Shown piece after piece: positions 6,074 through 37,584 of a DNA stretch of 59,223 nt. Location of the stretch: assembly GCA_030427255.1 (NCBI GenBank), contig JAUHWY010000021.1, forward strand, positions 1 to 59,223, given 5' to 3'. The position numbers and the translations under genes are program-made. The notes beneath the pieces were generated by a model, which searched no databases, was not told the origin of the DNA, and saw only the letters and a program-made list of their open reading frames with translations. The stretch's first letter is position 1. The number at the start of each line of letters is the position of its first letter. Origin of the DNA: Bacteroidia bacterium (GTDB lineage Bacteria > Bacteroidota > Bacteroidia > CAIKAF01).

Positions 6074-6167
6074 TTACGGTAATAAGTTTCCGGGCGCAAA
6101 AGTAAGAACAAAAGGAAGATAATCCTATGAAAAATTAAAAAGAGGAAAAAAAGAACTACAGAGGATC

Positions 6168-6330
6168 AAGGCCCCCGGATTGCAGCGGCAGCCTTTTGCA
6201 GCAGCTTGGCATTTGTACCGGGCTGAGCCGGGCGGAGCGCCAGCAAGCCCCGGAGAAGCCAAGGAACAAAGCCAAGGTGCAAAAAAGCTATAGCGGAAAG
6301 CCGGAAAAGGGCCCCAAAACCAATTTTTAG
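6168..6330. repeat. GC-rich intergenic element (type B)
   Basis: The gap between divergent atpD and ribF holds a G+C-rich block with short self-complementary pieces (GCAGCGGCAGCC.., ACCGGGCTGAGCCGGGCGGAGC). The string GCGCCAGCAAGCCCCGGAG is close to GCGCAGCAAGCACCCGGAG in the element near 45.17 kb, which suggests shared ancestry. No convincing coding sequence. Confidence 0.4.
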
Positions 6331-31792: not shown

Positions 31793-31822
31793 TTGAAGAT
31801 AGCTTTTCTAGCCTTACCTTTG
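31793..31822 (+). promoter_or_regulatory. Promoter of the MbnP/MbnH operon, leaderless type
   Basis: TTG (31793-31795), exactly 19 nt, TACCTTTG (31815-31822). The final G lies 5 nt before the ATG at 31827, so transcription should start on the start codon. Confidence 0.75.
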
Positions 31823-31826
31823 TGCC

Positions 31827-32216
31827 ATGCGTTTAGGCTTCGCATGGATGTTATTGGTGGTGCTTACCACCCCTTTGGTTTTAAGCCAATGGCTGCAACT
31901 TGATTTTTTAATCAACCGCAACCGCTATGCCGAGGCTTGTGTTCAAAAGAAAACCATTCCTTTATGTAAGGGAACCTGCCAACTCAATTACGAATTGTCC
32001 TTGGTTCAATGGTCGCCCGAAGCCTCCCAAGGAACAGAAACTCCAACAACAGAAAAGCCTTTACGCTTTGATTTTATTGCATTTTTACCCATTATCTTCC
32101 ATTTGGAAACCCCATCCGGCGGATTGTTTTTCCTAAAATCGGAGGGCTCTAGTCCAAAGGTCTTTGGAACAGAGCATCAACCGGAATCCCCACCTCCGGA
32201 GCTATTGTTGGCTTAA
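31827..32216 (+). CDS. Small exported Cys-motif protein of unknown function
   Basis: 129 residues. An N-terminal hydrophobic anchor or signal (about 1-21) precedes the motif FLINRNRYAEACVQKKTIPL and CKGTCQL (C38, C47, C51), a pattern I recognise from small Bacteroidota proteins encoded beside metal or heme uptake genes; three cysteines could bind a metal. A second hydrophobic stretch (FDFIAFLPIIFHLE) and a proline-rich tail ending PPPELLLA follow. It precedes mbnP by 138 bp on the same strand. Confidence 0.7.
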   Translation: MRLGFAWMLLVVLTTPLVLSQWLQLDFLINRNRYAEACVQKKTIPLCKGTCQLNYELSLVQWSPEASQGTETPTTEKPLRFDFIAFLPIIFHLETPSGGLFFLKSEGSSPKVFGTEHQPESPPPELLLA

Positions 32217-32354
32217 TGGCTTAAGCCTTTCCCCTTTCCAAGAAACCTTGGATTACCATTTTTTTAATTTTCGGTCCTACGACCCCTAGCCTGCACATGT
32301 TGAAGCCGGGCCTAAGACTCAAGTCGTGACCGCAACCAATTTAGCACTTTATTT

Positions 32355-33110
32355 ATGTCTACTATTTCAAAACTCCTTATAATAGCGAGTGCCGTAGCAC
32401 TCACCTTTGCCTCCTGTTCAGATGAGGACCCCACAACCAACGATGGTACTAGTGGTGAAGTTGTTCTAAAGTTAGATCACCGCTGGAATGGGAACCCCTT
32501 TGCTTTAAATCAAAGTCTTACCCACCCTGTAAATGCAGAAGGGCTAAGCTTTACTACTTTAAAGTACTACATTTCTAATGTAGAGCTAAAGTCGACCGAG
32601 GGCGATTGGCATAAAGCCACCGACCAATATTTTTTAGCGGATGCAGCCCAGGGAGAAAATCAGTTGACGGTAAAGGATGTTCCTACCGGAAGCTATACCG
32701 ATATTCGCTTTATGCTTGGCGTAGATTCGCTGCGGAATGTTTCCGGGGCACAGGAAGGAGCGCTGGCGGTTAGTAACAATATGTTCTGGAGCTGGAACAC
32801 CGGCTACATTTTTGTAAAAGCCGAAGGCACCTCCTCTACCAGCAACTCCGGACAATTTACCTACCATTTGGGCGGGTTTTCCGGACCCAACGCGGCTAAC
32901 CCCGTCATTGAGCTCAGTTTCAATGGTGCTTTATTGGAGGTAGAAGGAGGTAGTGCTCCCCAAGTACACTTAATGGTTGACCCTTCTCATTTATGGAACG
33001 GAGGCGAAACTACCGCATCTACTCCCATGGTACACATGCCCGGTGCCAAAGCCAAAGCCCTTATGATGGCCTTTAAAAACGGCATCACATGGGACCACAA
33101 CCACAATTGA
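32355..33110 (+). CDS. MbnP-like lipoprotein
   Basis: 251 residues. A lipoprotein signal ends at C21 (TFAS-C). The mature part has the MbnP-like core: VVLKLDHRWNGNPFALNQ, FTTLKYYISNVELKS, GSYTDIRFMLGVDSLRN, MFWSWNTGYIFVKAEG, FTYHLGGFSG, and the His-rich end WDHNHN. In methanotrophs MbnP is a copper-binding periplasmic partner whose tryptophan is oxidised to kynurenine by the di-heme enzyme MbnH. Here the next gene is a di-heme peroxidase that overlaps the stop (TGATG), so the pair appears conserved. Metal specificity is inferred. Confidence 0.88.
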   Translation: MSTISKLLIIASAVALTFASCSDEDPTTNDGTSGEVVLKLDHRWNGNPFALNQSLTHPVNAEGLSFTTLKYYISNVELKSTEGDWHKATDQYFLADAAQGENQLTVKDVPTGSYTDIRFMLGVDSLRNVSGAQEGALAVSNNMFWSWNTGYIFVKAEGTSSTSNSGQFTYHLGGFSGPNAANPVIELSFNGALLEVEGGSAPQVHLMVDPSHLWNGGETTASTPMVHMPGAKAKALMMAFKNGITWDHNHN

Positions 33111-34123
33111 TGTTGATTCGAATGTTGCGTGCATTACCCATCTTTGGATGGGTAATGCTTGCTTCTTGCAGTCCGGACACCGAGGAGCTTGGTAATCCCT
33201 ATGCCTTTAATCCTCCGGAGCATTTTCCATCCCCGGTATATGGTTTAGGCGACCAAAGGCCAAGCCCTATGGGTTTTAAACTAGGGAAAAAGCTGTTTTA
33301 CGACAGGCAACTTTCCTCCGACGGTACGGTATCTTGCGGAAGCTGCCATGCGCAAGTGCACGCCTTTGCCGATCATAATACCAAACTAAGCATGGGGGTG
33401 GAAGGGCGTTTGGGCATTCGAAATGCACCGCCTGTATTTAATATGGCCTGGCACCCGGCCTTTATGTGGGACGGTGGCATAAACCATTTAGAATTGGTTC
33501 CGGTTGCCCCCTTTACGCATCCCTTAGAAATGAACCTGACCATGGCTCAGGTAGTACAAAAAGTAAACCAAGACAGCAGCTATCGCTCCTTGGTGCAACA
33601 GGCGTTTGGCACAAGCCAATTGCAAGACCACCACATACTTATATCGCTGGCTCAATTTATGACGTTGATTGTCTCCGCCGGTTCCAGGTACGACATGCAC
33701 CTAAGCACAGGAAAAGGCCTAAATGCCTTAGAAATGGAAGGCCTAAGCCTATTCAAACAACATTGCAGCCATTGCCATAGCGAACCTTTGCTGAGCGACT
33801 TCAGCTACCGAAACAACGGCTTAGACAGCCTAAGCGAAGATGAAGGAAGGGCCCTCATTAGTTTAAACCCCTCGGATCGAGGAAAATTTAAAGTGCCTAG
33901 CCTGCGCAATGCAGCATTAACTTACCCCTACATGCACGATGGCAGATTTATGACTTTGGAGCAGGCCATTGCGCATTATCGCTCTCCCAAAGCCACACCA
34001 AATCTTGACCCCTCTTTAAGCGCAGGCATTCCGCTTAGCGACCAAGATATTGAAGCCTTAGTTGCCTTTATAAAAAGCACAACCGATGAAACACTTATTT
34101 CCGATACCCGGTGGATGGAGTAA
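33110..34123 (+). CDS. Di-heme cytochrome c peroxidase family protein (MbnH-like)
   Basis: 337 residues. A lipoprotein signal (lipobox LAS-C20) is followed by two c-type heme sites, CGSCH (76-80) and CSHCH (near residue 220), with the bCcP/MauG family landmarks LGKKLFYDRQLSSDGTVSC, RNAPPVFNMAW, FMWDGG, FKVPSLRNAALTYPYMHDGR and FMTLEQAIAHY. The start is the ATG at 33110, which shares bases with the mbnP stop; an in-frame ATG 21 bp earlier would spoil the lipoprotein signal. Likely acts on MbnP. It overlaps the next gene by 38 bp. Confidence 0.92.
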   Translation: MLIRMLRALPIFGWVMLASCSPDTEELGNPYAFNPPEHFPSPVYGLGDQRPSPMGFKLGKKLFYDRQLSSDGTVSCGSCHAQVHAFADHNTKLSMGVEGRLGIRNAPPVFNMAWHPAFMWDGGINHLELVPVAPFTHPLEMNLTMAQVVQKVNQDSSYRSLVQQAFGTSQLQDHHILISLAQFMTLIVSAGSRYDMHLSTGKGLNALEMEGLSLFKQHCSHCHSEPLLSDFSYRNNGLDSLSEDEGRALISLNPSDRGKFKVPSLRNAALTYPYMHDGRFMTLEQAIAHYRSPKATPNLDPSLSAGIPLSDQDIEALVAFIKSTTDETLISDTRWME

Positions 34124-35030
34124 AGCCTTTGTTCTACTGAATCTTCTTTTGCTCATCCCAAATGGAGCAAGTGCCTGCGATGTTTGCGGCTGTATGGCTC
34201 CCTTCAATGCAGGCGGATTTTTACCGGTGGTGCGCACCAATTTGGTAGGCATAAGGTATCAATTTCGCAGTTTTGAACATCCAAATACCCCCCTAAACTA
34301 CAACGGAAGCAACCGTGTGCTCCAAGACCAAATGCACAGCACTGAGCTGTGGTTTCGAGTATTTCCTCACCAAAGGTTTCAATTGCTCGGAAGCCTTCCC
34401 TTTAGCTACCACAAACGCATAGAAAGCCAACAAAGCTATGCCATTTATGGTCCCGGAGACGCGCAAATACAAGGCTCTTGGATTGCCTTTATGACTCCCG
34501 ACAGTTCCACCTCCAAATGGAAACATGGACTAATGACCGGCCTTGATTTGCAGCTTCCCTTAGGGAATTACCGGCAAAGAGACCCCAAGGGCACCGTTTT
34601 GCCTTTGGGCTTTCAGACCGGAAGCGGCAGCTGGGGGGCCGGTGCGCACATCAATTATACGCTTCGGTACAAAAAATTCGGTCTAAACTTTGACAGCCGC
34701 ATTCGGATGTTTGCCCAAAACGAGTCAAGTTACCTACCCGGATGGCGCATGAGTCAACAGCTGCAGCTGTTTTACTGGAAACAAGGCAACAAAGTGCAAT
34801 GGATTCCCATGGGCGGTTTGCTTTTGGAACATTACGGCCGCGACCGCTCCTTTGATATACCGGAAGCCACCACCGGAGGTACCATGGCCAAAGTAAGCCT
34901 TGGTTTAGACGTCTATTTAAACCGTTGGTTTATTAGCGGACATTGGCAGCAAGCGGTATGGCAGCAAGTTCCGGCGGCACAGCCCATAGCCCTCGGAAGA
35001 TTTCAAACAACTTTAGCTTACCGGTTCTAG
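34086..35030 (+). CDS. Outer-membrane barrel with CDVCGC motif, metal-associated
   Basis: 314 residues. The signal peptide ends at ASA-30 so that the mature protein begins CDVCGCM (C31, C34, C36), a likely metal or heme-binding tag. The rest is amphipathic strand-rich (VGIRYQFRSFEHP, RFQLLGSLPFSYHKRI, HGLMTGLDLQLPLGNY, SWGAGAHINYTLRYKKFG) and ends in an aromatic strand (FQTTLAYRF), as in transporter-type outer-membrane proteins. Proteins with N-terminal CDxCGC next to MbnP/MbnH genes recur in Bacteroidota as far as I recall; a copper or iron surface role is inferred. Confidence 0.8.
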   Translation: MKHLFPIPGGWSKAFVLLNLLLLIPNGASACDVCGCMAPFNAGGFLPVVRTNLVGIRYQFRSFEHPNTPLNYNGSNRVLQDQMHSTELWFRVFPHQRFQLLGSLPFSYHKRIESQQSYAIYGPGDAQIQGSWIAFMTPDSSTSKWKHGLMTGLDLQLPLGNYRQRDPKGTVLPLGFQTGSGSWGAGAHINYTLRYKKFGLNFDSRIRMFAQNESSYLPGWRMSQQLQLFYWKQGNKVQWIPMGGLLLEHYGRDRSFDIPEATTGGTMAKVSLGLDVYLNRWFISGHWQQAVWQQVPAAQPIALGRFQTTLAYRF

Positions 35031-36139: not shown

Positions 36140-36364
36140 ATGCGCGAACTAAAGGACATAGTAAAATATCACAGAAAACAGGCCGGGCTTTCAAGAAGAG
36201 CGTTATCTGAATTGTCAGGCGTAAGTACAACCTTCTTATCAGATTTAGAAGGAGGTAAAGAAACACTTCAATATGATAAAGTTTTAGATGTGCTAAAAAC
36301 ACTCAACATATCCCTGGTTTTTGAAAGTCCTATAATGAAAGAACTGAACAATGAGAAAAGCTAA
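36140..36364 (+). CDS. hipB: HipB-like antitoxin / XRE regulator
   Basis: A 74-residue single-domain helix-turn-helix protein: KYHRKQAGLSRRALSELSGV then STTFLSDLEGGKETLQYDKV. Closest in layout to HipB of HipBA/HipBST modules: binds the operator and, in the complex, tethers the toxin side. Codon use and base composition are markedly more A+T-rich than the flanking housekeeping genes, which points to acquisition. Overlaps hipS by 14 bp. Confidence 0.9.
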   Translation: MRELKDIVKYHRKQAGLSRRALSELSGVSTTFLSDLEGGKETLQYDKVLDVLKTLNISLVFESPIMKELNNEKS

Positions 36365-36668
36365 AGTTTCAATGTATGGAAAAGAAGCAGGAGTGCTGAT
36401 TGAACACTCAAGGAACATGTACACTTTTCAATACTTGTCTGACTATTCTGGTGAGCCAATTTCCTTAACAATGCCTGTGAGAGAGGAACAATATATCTAT
36501 GATTCCTTTCCTCCATTTTTCGAGGGGTTATTGCCAGAGGGATATAACAGAAATCAACTTTTAAGACTTAGAAAGATTGATTCAAAAGATTATTTCTCAA
36601 TGTTAATGTACCTGGGACAAAACGTAGTTGGAGCAACAACAATCACTGAAATCCTCGACAATGAGTAA
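36351..36668 (+). CDS. hipS: HipS-like protein (HipA N-terminal subdomain 1)
   Basis: 105 residues equal to the N-subdomain 1 of HipA encoded on its own: VSMYGKEAGVLIEHSRNMYT, FQYLSDYSGEPISLTMPV, FPPFFEGLLPEGYNRNQLL, YFSMLMYLGQNVVGA. In the tripartite HipBST system (described in E. coli O127), this separate piece, HipS, is the antitoxin that neutralises the kinase HipT. The gene overlaps both hipB (14 bp) and hipT (8 bp), implying tight translational coupling. Confidence 0.87.
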   Translation: MRKAKVSMYGKEAGVLIEHSRNMYTFQYLSDYSGEPISLTMPVREEQYIYDSFPPFFEGLLPEGYNRNQLLRLRKIDSKDYFSMLMYLGQNVVGATTITEILDNE

Positions 36669-37584
36669 GTGCTTGATTACATATAATGGATGTAATGGGG
36701 ATTATTCCAAAGAAGGATTAAAGCTATTGAACAAAAATTTGGAGAACATTGCTCCATTTAATTTTACTCAGTCCGAGCTTAGAACAGAAGCACTCGCCAT
36801 AAGTGATAAAATATCCATCCAAGGGATTCAGCCAAAACTAAGTGCAAGACTCAATGTCAAAGAAGGGAAATTTGATATTGTTGAACAACATGGCACATAC
36901 ATCATTAAGGTGCAAGTTCCAGACAGGCCACAAATGCCAGAGAATGAGGATTTGACAATGAAACTGGCAAAAGCGATTGGGATAGACGTGCCCGTTCATG
37001 GTCTGGTTAGGGATAAAGAAGGGCAACTCAATTATTTTATCAAAAGATTTGATAGATATAGTCAGAAATCAAAGTATGCAGTTGAAGATTTCGCTCAACT
37101 TACAGAACGTCCCAGTGATACTAAGTACGATGCAAGTACCGAGTCACTTATTCCCATAATCACTCGCTTTTGTACTTTCCCTGCTATTGAAATGCTAAAA
37201 TTATACAAGAGAATCTTCTTTTCATTCATGGTAGGCAATGAAGATATGCACCTAAAGAACTTTAGCTTGATAAGCAAAGAAGCTAAAACCTATTTATCTC
37301 CAGCATACGACCTATTGAATTCAACCATCGCTATGAAGAGAACCAAAGAGGAGTTAGCCTTGCCAATTATGGGGACTAAAGCCAGATTTAAACCGTTTCA
37401 TCTCAGGGAGTATCTTGGAATTGAACGCATGGAACTACAACAGAAAATAGTAGAAAAAGTATTTACTGAAGTGTATGGAGCGAGAAGTTCCTGGGAGGGA
37501 TTAATAGAGAAGTCATTTTTATCGGACAAATTGAAAGAGGATTACCTTAATATTCTGAACAACCGATTTAAAAGAATGTACTAA
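36661..37584 (+). CDS. hipT: HipT-like serine/threonine kinase toxin
   Basis: A 307-residue HipA-type kinase lacking the N-terminal subdomain that here is HipS. Glycine-rich/autophosphorylation loop KISIQGIQPKLSA with S52, ATP-lysine region TYIIKVQ, catalytic loop VGNEDMHLKNFSLI, and the metal-binding LSPAYDLLNS. In known HipA/HipT toxins the kinase phosphorylates an aminoacyl-tRNA synthetase (GltX for HipA, TrpS for HipT); the target here is unknown. The start is the ATG at 36661, overlapping the hipS stop. A+T-rich. Confidence 0.9.
   Translation: MSKCLITYNGCNGDYSKEGLKLLNKNLENIAPFNFTQSELRTEALAISDKISIQGIQPKLSARLNVKEGKFDIVEQHGTYIIKVQVPDRPQMPENEDLTMKLAKAIGIDVPVHGLVRDKEGQLNYFIKRFDRYSQKSKYAVEDFAQLTERPSDTKYDASTESLIPIITRFCTFPAIEMLKLYKRIFFSFMVGNEDMHLKNFSLISKEAKTYLSPAYDLLNSTIAMKRTKEELALPIMGTKARFKPFHLREYLGIERMELQQKIVEKVFTEVYGARSSWEGLIEKSFLSDKLKEDYLNILNNRFKRMY

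Follow-up and report, generated by a model that had tools for sequence, protein, structure and literature searches.

The MbnP-MbnH pair encoded in the 59,223-nucleotide contig analysed here (the window; JAUHWY010000021.1 of assembly GCA_030427255.1) appears to belong to a modular Bacteroidota operon, in which a small Cys protein and an outer-membrane beta-barrel form a chassis for exchangeable metal-binding lipoproteins. We give roughly even chances to the operon handling copper at the outer membrane, with acquisition as its likeliest purpose. Given its conserved neighbourhood, the four-gene set is far beyond chance. An earlier note on this DNA, which had singled out the pair and its two flanking genes, overlooked the larger pattern, namely that the Cys protein and barrel are constant, whereas the lipoprotein modules are exchangeable and number at least two, MbnPH among them.

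The four-gene operon in the window

The four genes lie on the forward strand between positions 31827 and 35030, where the earlier note had placed them, and come after mutS and tRNA-Gly. The first (31827..32216) encodes a small membrane-anchored or exported protein of 129 aa with the motif C38-x8-C47-x-G-x-C51, the three cysteines being exactly those previously listed; Pfam and PDB searches assigned it to no Pfam family and returned no convincing relative. The second (32355..33110) encodes an MbnP family lipoprotein of 251 aa (PF20243, E 5.1e-52, 177 bits against a cut-off of 27), as had been proposed, in which the lipobox residue Cys21 is the sole cysteine and is followed by SDED, reading C-S-D-E-D. 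The His-rich tail ascribed to this protein is modest, although it does have an HxH-type end (...WDHNHN), present in 25 of the 48 MbnPs of the census described below. The mbnH start at 33110 overlaps the MbnP stop codon (TGATG), and the gene (33110..34123) encodes the anticipated MbnH-like di-heme lipoprotein, with a lipobox at Cys20, CXXCH motifs at 76-80 and 219-223, and Tyr290. The ATG of the barrel gene (34086..35030) falls 38 nt inside the 3' end of mbnH, and its product is predicted from model and fold match to be an outer-membrane beta-barrel with CDVCGC at its mature N terminus, again as the earlier note had it. By MbnP similarity search, the closest named relative is Flavobacteriales bacterium M30B58 (L033), with 88% MbnP identity and the same four genes.

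Searched against the PDB, neither the single MbnP sequence nor a narrow profile (A1) gave a relevant match. The structural model (pLDDT 85, pTM 0.80) matched six chains of 7L6G, the MbnP of M. trichosporium OB3b, and nothing else closely in Foldseek, and VIA-align superposed the two with Z 17.8 (rmsd 2.8, 205 residues; next entry Z 5.4). A broader profile built from diverse MbnP relatives (A5) picked up 7L6G by sequence (E 0.00043), with M143, W145, W147, and H171 falling on the Met, Trp, Trp, and His of 7L6G (WNW). In the study of 7L6G, the first Trp of WxW is reportedly converted to kynurenine, with the Met and His near the copper. W145 and W147 were invariant in 25 aligned MbnPs, and WxW was intact in 46 of the 48 census MbnPs, the exceptions being one broken sequence and one contig-edge fragment; the family-wide absence of this tryptophan, which the earlier note had named as evidence against its reading, was not found. 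M143 is replaced in some divergent MbnPs.

MbnH matched CCP_MauG (E 2.3e-48), and its profile found 6E1C as the best PDB entry (E 7.9e-71). Tyr290 aligns with the Tyr of 6E1C, in the column that holds the peroxidase Met ligand of the second heme in 1IQC and 3O5C, and both CXXCH heme motifs were invariant among aligned relatives. The window pair shares with that of M. trichosporium OB3b the MbnP fold, the same M-x-W-x-W and H columns, and an adjacent di-heme partner with Tyr at the ligand position. Unlike the OB3b pair, both window proteins are lipoproteins and are accompanied by Cys and barrel genes with no methanobactin genes found, and MbnP has its one lipobox Cys rather than the four-Cys motif. 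Both are members of their wider families and score below the equivalog cut-offs (MbnP, 43 bits against 140 for TIGR04052; MbnH, 189.8 bits against 362.85 for TIGR04039). mbnB had no match in the window's own genome, a Flavobacteriales-type MAG that is 99.6% complete, in line with its reported absence from the window; mbnC had no match there either, but its control search also matched nothing anywhere. That MbnP-MbnH occurs without methanobactin genes, which the earlier note had treated as remarkable, is not news, the pair being known to be conserved far beyond methanobactin producers (PMC3621798). The window's own genome carries a second, divergent MbnP-MbnH pair on contig C42 (L121 6738-8379), of a type found genus-wide and with no Cys or barrel genes.

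A simple rule recognised lipoboxes in 41 of 48 MbnPs, 30 of 37 MbnHs, and 21 of 22 members of a second lipoprotein type, F4 (see below), usually with acidic residues next; several proteins that the rule missed are plainly lipoproteins as well. Bacteroidota lipoproteins can be directed to the cell surface when the lipobox Cys is succeeded by a polar or Lys residue and then acids (PMC5080379), and MbnP may be exposed there. The proposal that MbnP and MbnH are anchored in the outer membrane as lipoproteins thus gains from the lipoboxes of most family members; the contrast it drew with soluble periplasmic forms needs correcting, as MopE, SACCP, and CorA are already established as surface or outer-membrane proteins (PMC3912023).

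The AlphaFold2 model of the barrel (pLDDT 79, pTM 0.75, 13 strands listed) found the COG4313 channel 4RL8 as its best Foldseek match (E 7.3e-10, TM 0.72 by target) and also resembled FapF (TM 0.66 by target), pointing to an outer-membrane channel fold. Identity to these proteins is at most 13%, however, and the window barrel differs in having an N-terminal CxxCxC. It had no Pfam match, PF13557 included; among 13 barrel relatives, one matched PF13557 (6.3e-05). CxxC is present at the N terminus of most homologues. In the window barrel the Cys motif precedes the first strand, within a low-confidence stretch of the model, and would be expected on the periplasmic side.

Elsewhere in the window, a 23S rRNA-intervening-sequence type four-helix protein (PF05635; 35248-35598) is encoded right after tRNA-Leu, and three overlapping genes at 36140-37584 (HTH_3, Couple_hipA, and HipA_C) resemble a tripartite HipBST toxin-antitoxin module, with a similar split HipA pair on contig C42 (L121 4257-5523). 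A Flavo-1 RNA match at 6166-6311 scored 43 bits against a gathering score of 42.

Conserved neighbourhood and operon start across Bacteroidia

The neighbourhood was surveyed from both ends. Among 23 loci, comprising the window and 22 fetched by MbnP similarity, the Cys gene was present in 19 and the barrel in 13. For the independent barrel-side census, 217 Bacteroidia genomes were searched and the surroundings of each strong match (E < 1e-25; 64 barrel loci) were read. Its frequencies carry a bias, since the profile had been built from loci with MbnP and so favours MbnP-type barrels. In 57 of the 64, a Cys gene lay on the same strand no more than 4 kb away. The earlier note had also held that its reading would suffer if the barrel and Cys gene were not conserved neighbours, and conserved neighbours they are. 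MbnP occurred in 43 of these 57 loci and F4 in 20, with both in seven and neither in one, so that 56 carried MbnP and/or F4. Common orders were Cys-MbnP-MbnH-barrel, Cys-barrel-MbnP-MbnH, Cys-MbnP-barrel, and Cys-barrel-F4. Named carriers of the operon include Hymenobacter profundi (L051). Because F4 takes the place of MbnP in relatives, the Cys protein and barrel seem to make up a general-purpose chassis. A mutual exclusion of MbnP and F4 (p 4e-7 by simple counts) is not claimed, as it comes down to four independent pairs on a barrel tree in which many branches are weak. A third small lipoprotein type, with a conserved HH (GxVxHHxKxIxxAxVYIKF), was seen in or beside the operons of L095, L100, L103, L106, L111, and L112.

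F4 is a His-rich lipoprotein of ~130 aa with conserved LHGY and HxH motifs and an NFHCHPM end. Several members have a DUF4625/Ig-like match: L056, L060, and L082 exceed the 27-bit DUF4625 (PF15418) cut-off, whereas the other members tried score lower or give no match. The F4 profile also gave weak matches on MbnPs, which may reflect only the common lipoprotein signal.

Occurrence within the genus is patchy. Among six genomes searched with MbnP, this type was found in the window's genome and G004 only, and barrel and Cys searches in the congeners G001 and G002 returned none. In G001, G002, and G005, a kynureninase-like gene, and not the operon, comes after mutS and tRNA-Gly (L127, L128, and L129; Pfam-checked in G001), probably by coincidence.

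MbnH is not always next to MbnP. Of the loci whose MbnP could be read, 13 have no adjacent MbnH; WxW was intact in all 13, and modification there would need an MbnH encoded elsewhere. Since those genomes carry MbnH-like genes elsewhere, among the matches listed, it is possible that MbnP is modified in trans by a distant MbnH.

A further shared feature lies at the operon start. In the window, a predicted Bacteroidota promoter on the forward strand (31793..31822) consists of TTG (31793-31795), 19 nt, and the -7 box TACCTTTG (31815-31822), an exact fit placed 4 nt before the Cys ATG. Across 59 loci, a TAnnTTTG -7 box ended 3-10 nt upstream of the Cys start codon in 41, most commonly at 4 nt, the start codon often being GTG. 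The same box position was seen for 20 of 377 other long ORFs (5%) and in a mean of 0.8 of 59 shuffled upstream sequences, and before the other operon genes it was almost absent (MbnP, 0/48; MbnH, 1/39; barrel, 2/64; F4, 0/22). The single conserved promoter before the Cys gene supports one predicted transcript for the set. In flavobacteria, the -7 box spans -12 to -5 relative to the transcription start, and no more than 5.5% of mRNAs are leaderless (PMC9723704). With its box 4 nt upstream of the ATG, the window mRNA is thus predicted to begin at the start codon itself and, as the box position is conserved, a leaderless Cys gene seems to open the operon class-wide. Inverted repeats in the 64 upstream regions, searched for a metal-responsive operator, did not exceed shuffles, only the -7 box standing out, and the sequence upstream of the operon showed neither a regulator nor a metal-box.

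Candidate metals, direction of transport, and proposed mechanism

Several observations place the operon in a copper context. SCO1-SenC and a cytochrome c are encoded directly downstream of the operon in L091, an arrangement shared by L092 on sequence; with MbnP itself, these genes suggest copper. MopE-SACCP of Methylococcus capsulatus and CorA-CorB of Methylomicrobium album, compared here by functional analogy, likewise combine a kynurenine copper protein with a di-heme peroxidase-like partner, and the copper site of CorA and MopE comprises kynurenine and two His, whereas a Cys/barrel chassis is not described for these systems in the accessible part of PMC3912023.

In the mechanism that we propose, MbnP and MbnH would be outer-membrane lipoproteins, possibly on the outer face, and MbnH would oxidise W145, the first Trp of WxW in MbnP, to kynurenine, as suggested by the M. 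trichosporium MbnPH. The modified MbnP would then bind a single Cu(I) close to the conserved residues M143 and H171. The barrel would provide the passage across the outer membrane, its periplasmic N-terminal CxxCxC end taking the ion and handing it to the CxGxC protein, presumably anchored in the periplasm. The lipoprotein, whether MbnP or F4, looks like the metal-choosing part on the Cys/barrel chassis.

The earlier note had suggested an acquisition complex, which is plausible, but the direction of transport is not fixed by sequence. The opposite direction, copper export or tolerance, would have these parts trap or eject excess Cu(I) at the outer membrane, the Cys protein collecting periplasmic Cu(I) and the barrel releasing it to surface MbnP or F4. 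This reading is unlikely, though it draws on the secretion channel FapF being among the barrel's best structural neighbours, on CxxC and CxGxC motifs that suit Cu(I) scavenging, and on the lack of a recognised TonB-dependent receptor among the operon-extending genes listed. Those same genes include no recognised efflux gene (P-type ATPase, CusA/B), however, and the MbnP relatives CorA and MopE are copper-repressible, a corA mutant growing very poorly (PMC3912023). A lead within the window's own genome also argues for uptake. On contig C50 (L133 3412-6638), a DUF4625 lipoprotein gene overlaps by 4 nt the gene of a TonB receptor that has His-rich stretches and ZnuD as its best PDB match, possibly a metal uptake pair. 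F4 resembles this DUF4625 lipoprotein, while the operon in the window differs in having a small porin-like barrel in place of the TonB receptor and MbnP in place of F4. Uptake is favoured over export because of the copper repression of CorA and MopE and this ZnuD lead, neither of which is proof.

We consider it equally improbable that the chassis serves mainly another metal, such as zinc, MbnPH being an alternative binder that certain lineages have recruited. F4 is rich in His (HxH and the FHCHPM end), a ZnuD-like receptor adjoins the DUF4625 lipoprotein, and in L060 a Fur-type regulator gene and a CobW GTPase adjoin Cys-barrel-F4, which hints at zinc over copper for the F4 type. Set against this, MbnP outnumbers F4 as the partner (43 of the 57 loci), its characterised homologue binds copper, and SCO1 comes after the operon in L091. 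Least credible, and in our estimate very unlikely, is a role for the di-heme protein as a conventional cytochrome c peroxidase against H2O2, with MbnP as a mere structural partner, since, although the CCP_MauG domain is common to bacterial peroxidases, the closest structure by profile search is MbnH 6E1C and not a peroxidase, Tyr replaces the Met ligand, and the target WxW is invariant.

Copper acquisition by the operon thus remains our preferred reading. A more novel reading, which we rate as less likely than not, is that the CxGxC protein and CxxCxC channel, begun from a leaderless transcript, constitute a Bacteroidota-wide outer-membrane metal-import chassis on which a swappable surface lipoprotein picks the metal, with kynurenine-MbnP for copper and F4 for another metal or copper form. 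A literature search found no study of DUF4625, nor any of MbnP in Bacteroidetes. Within the searchable literature, what looks new is the constant pairing of Cys protein and barrel as a chassis, F4 as an alternative to MbnP, and the leaderless start shared across loci; the operon itself may be included in the neighbourhood analysis of the 2021 MbnP study.

MbnPH pairs are known to be widespread, and across Bacteroidia the operon gives those outside methanotrophs fixed partners, namely an outer-membrane channel and a Cys protein. Its natural variants, with or without MbnH and with F4 for MbnP, make the role of the kynurenine copper site testable, as they do the action of MbnH in trans and the entry of copper through the outer membrane without a TonB receptor in Bacteroidota. 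If the metal-import chassis is real, it would represent a porin-type, TonB-independent route of metal uptake.
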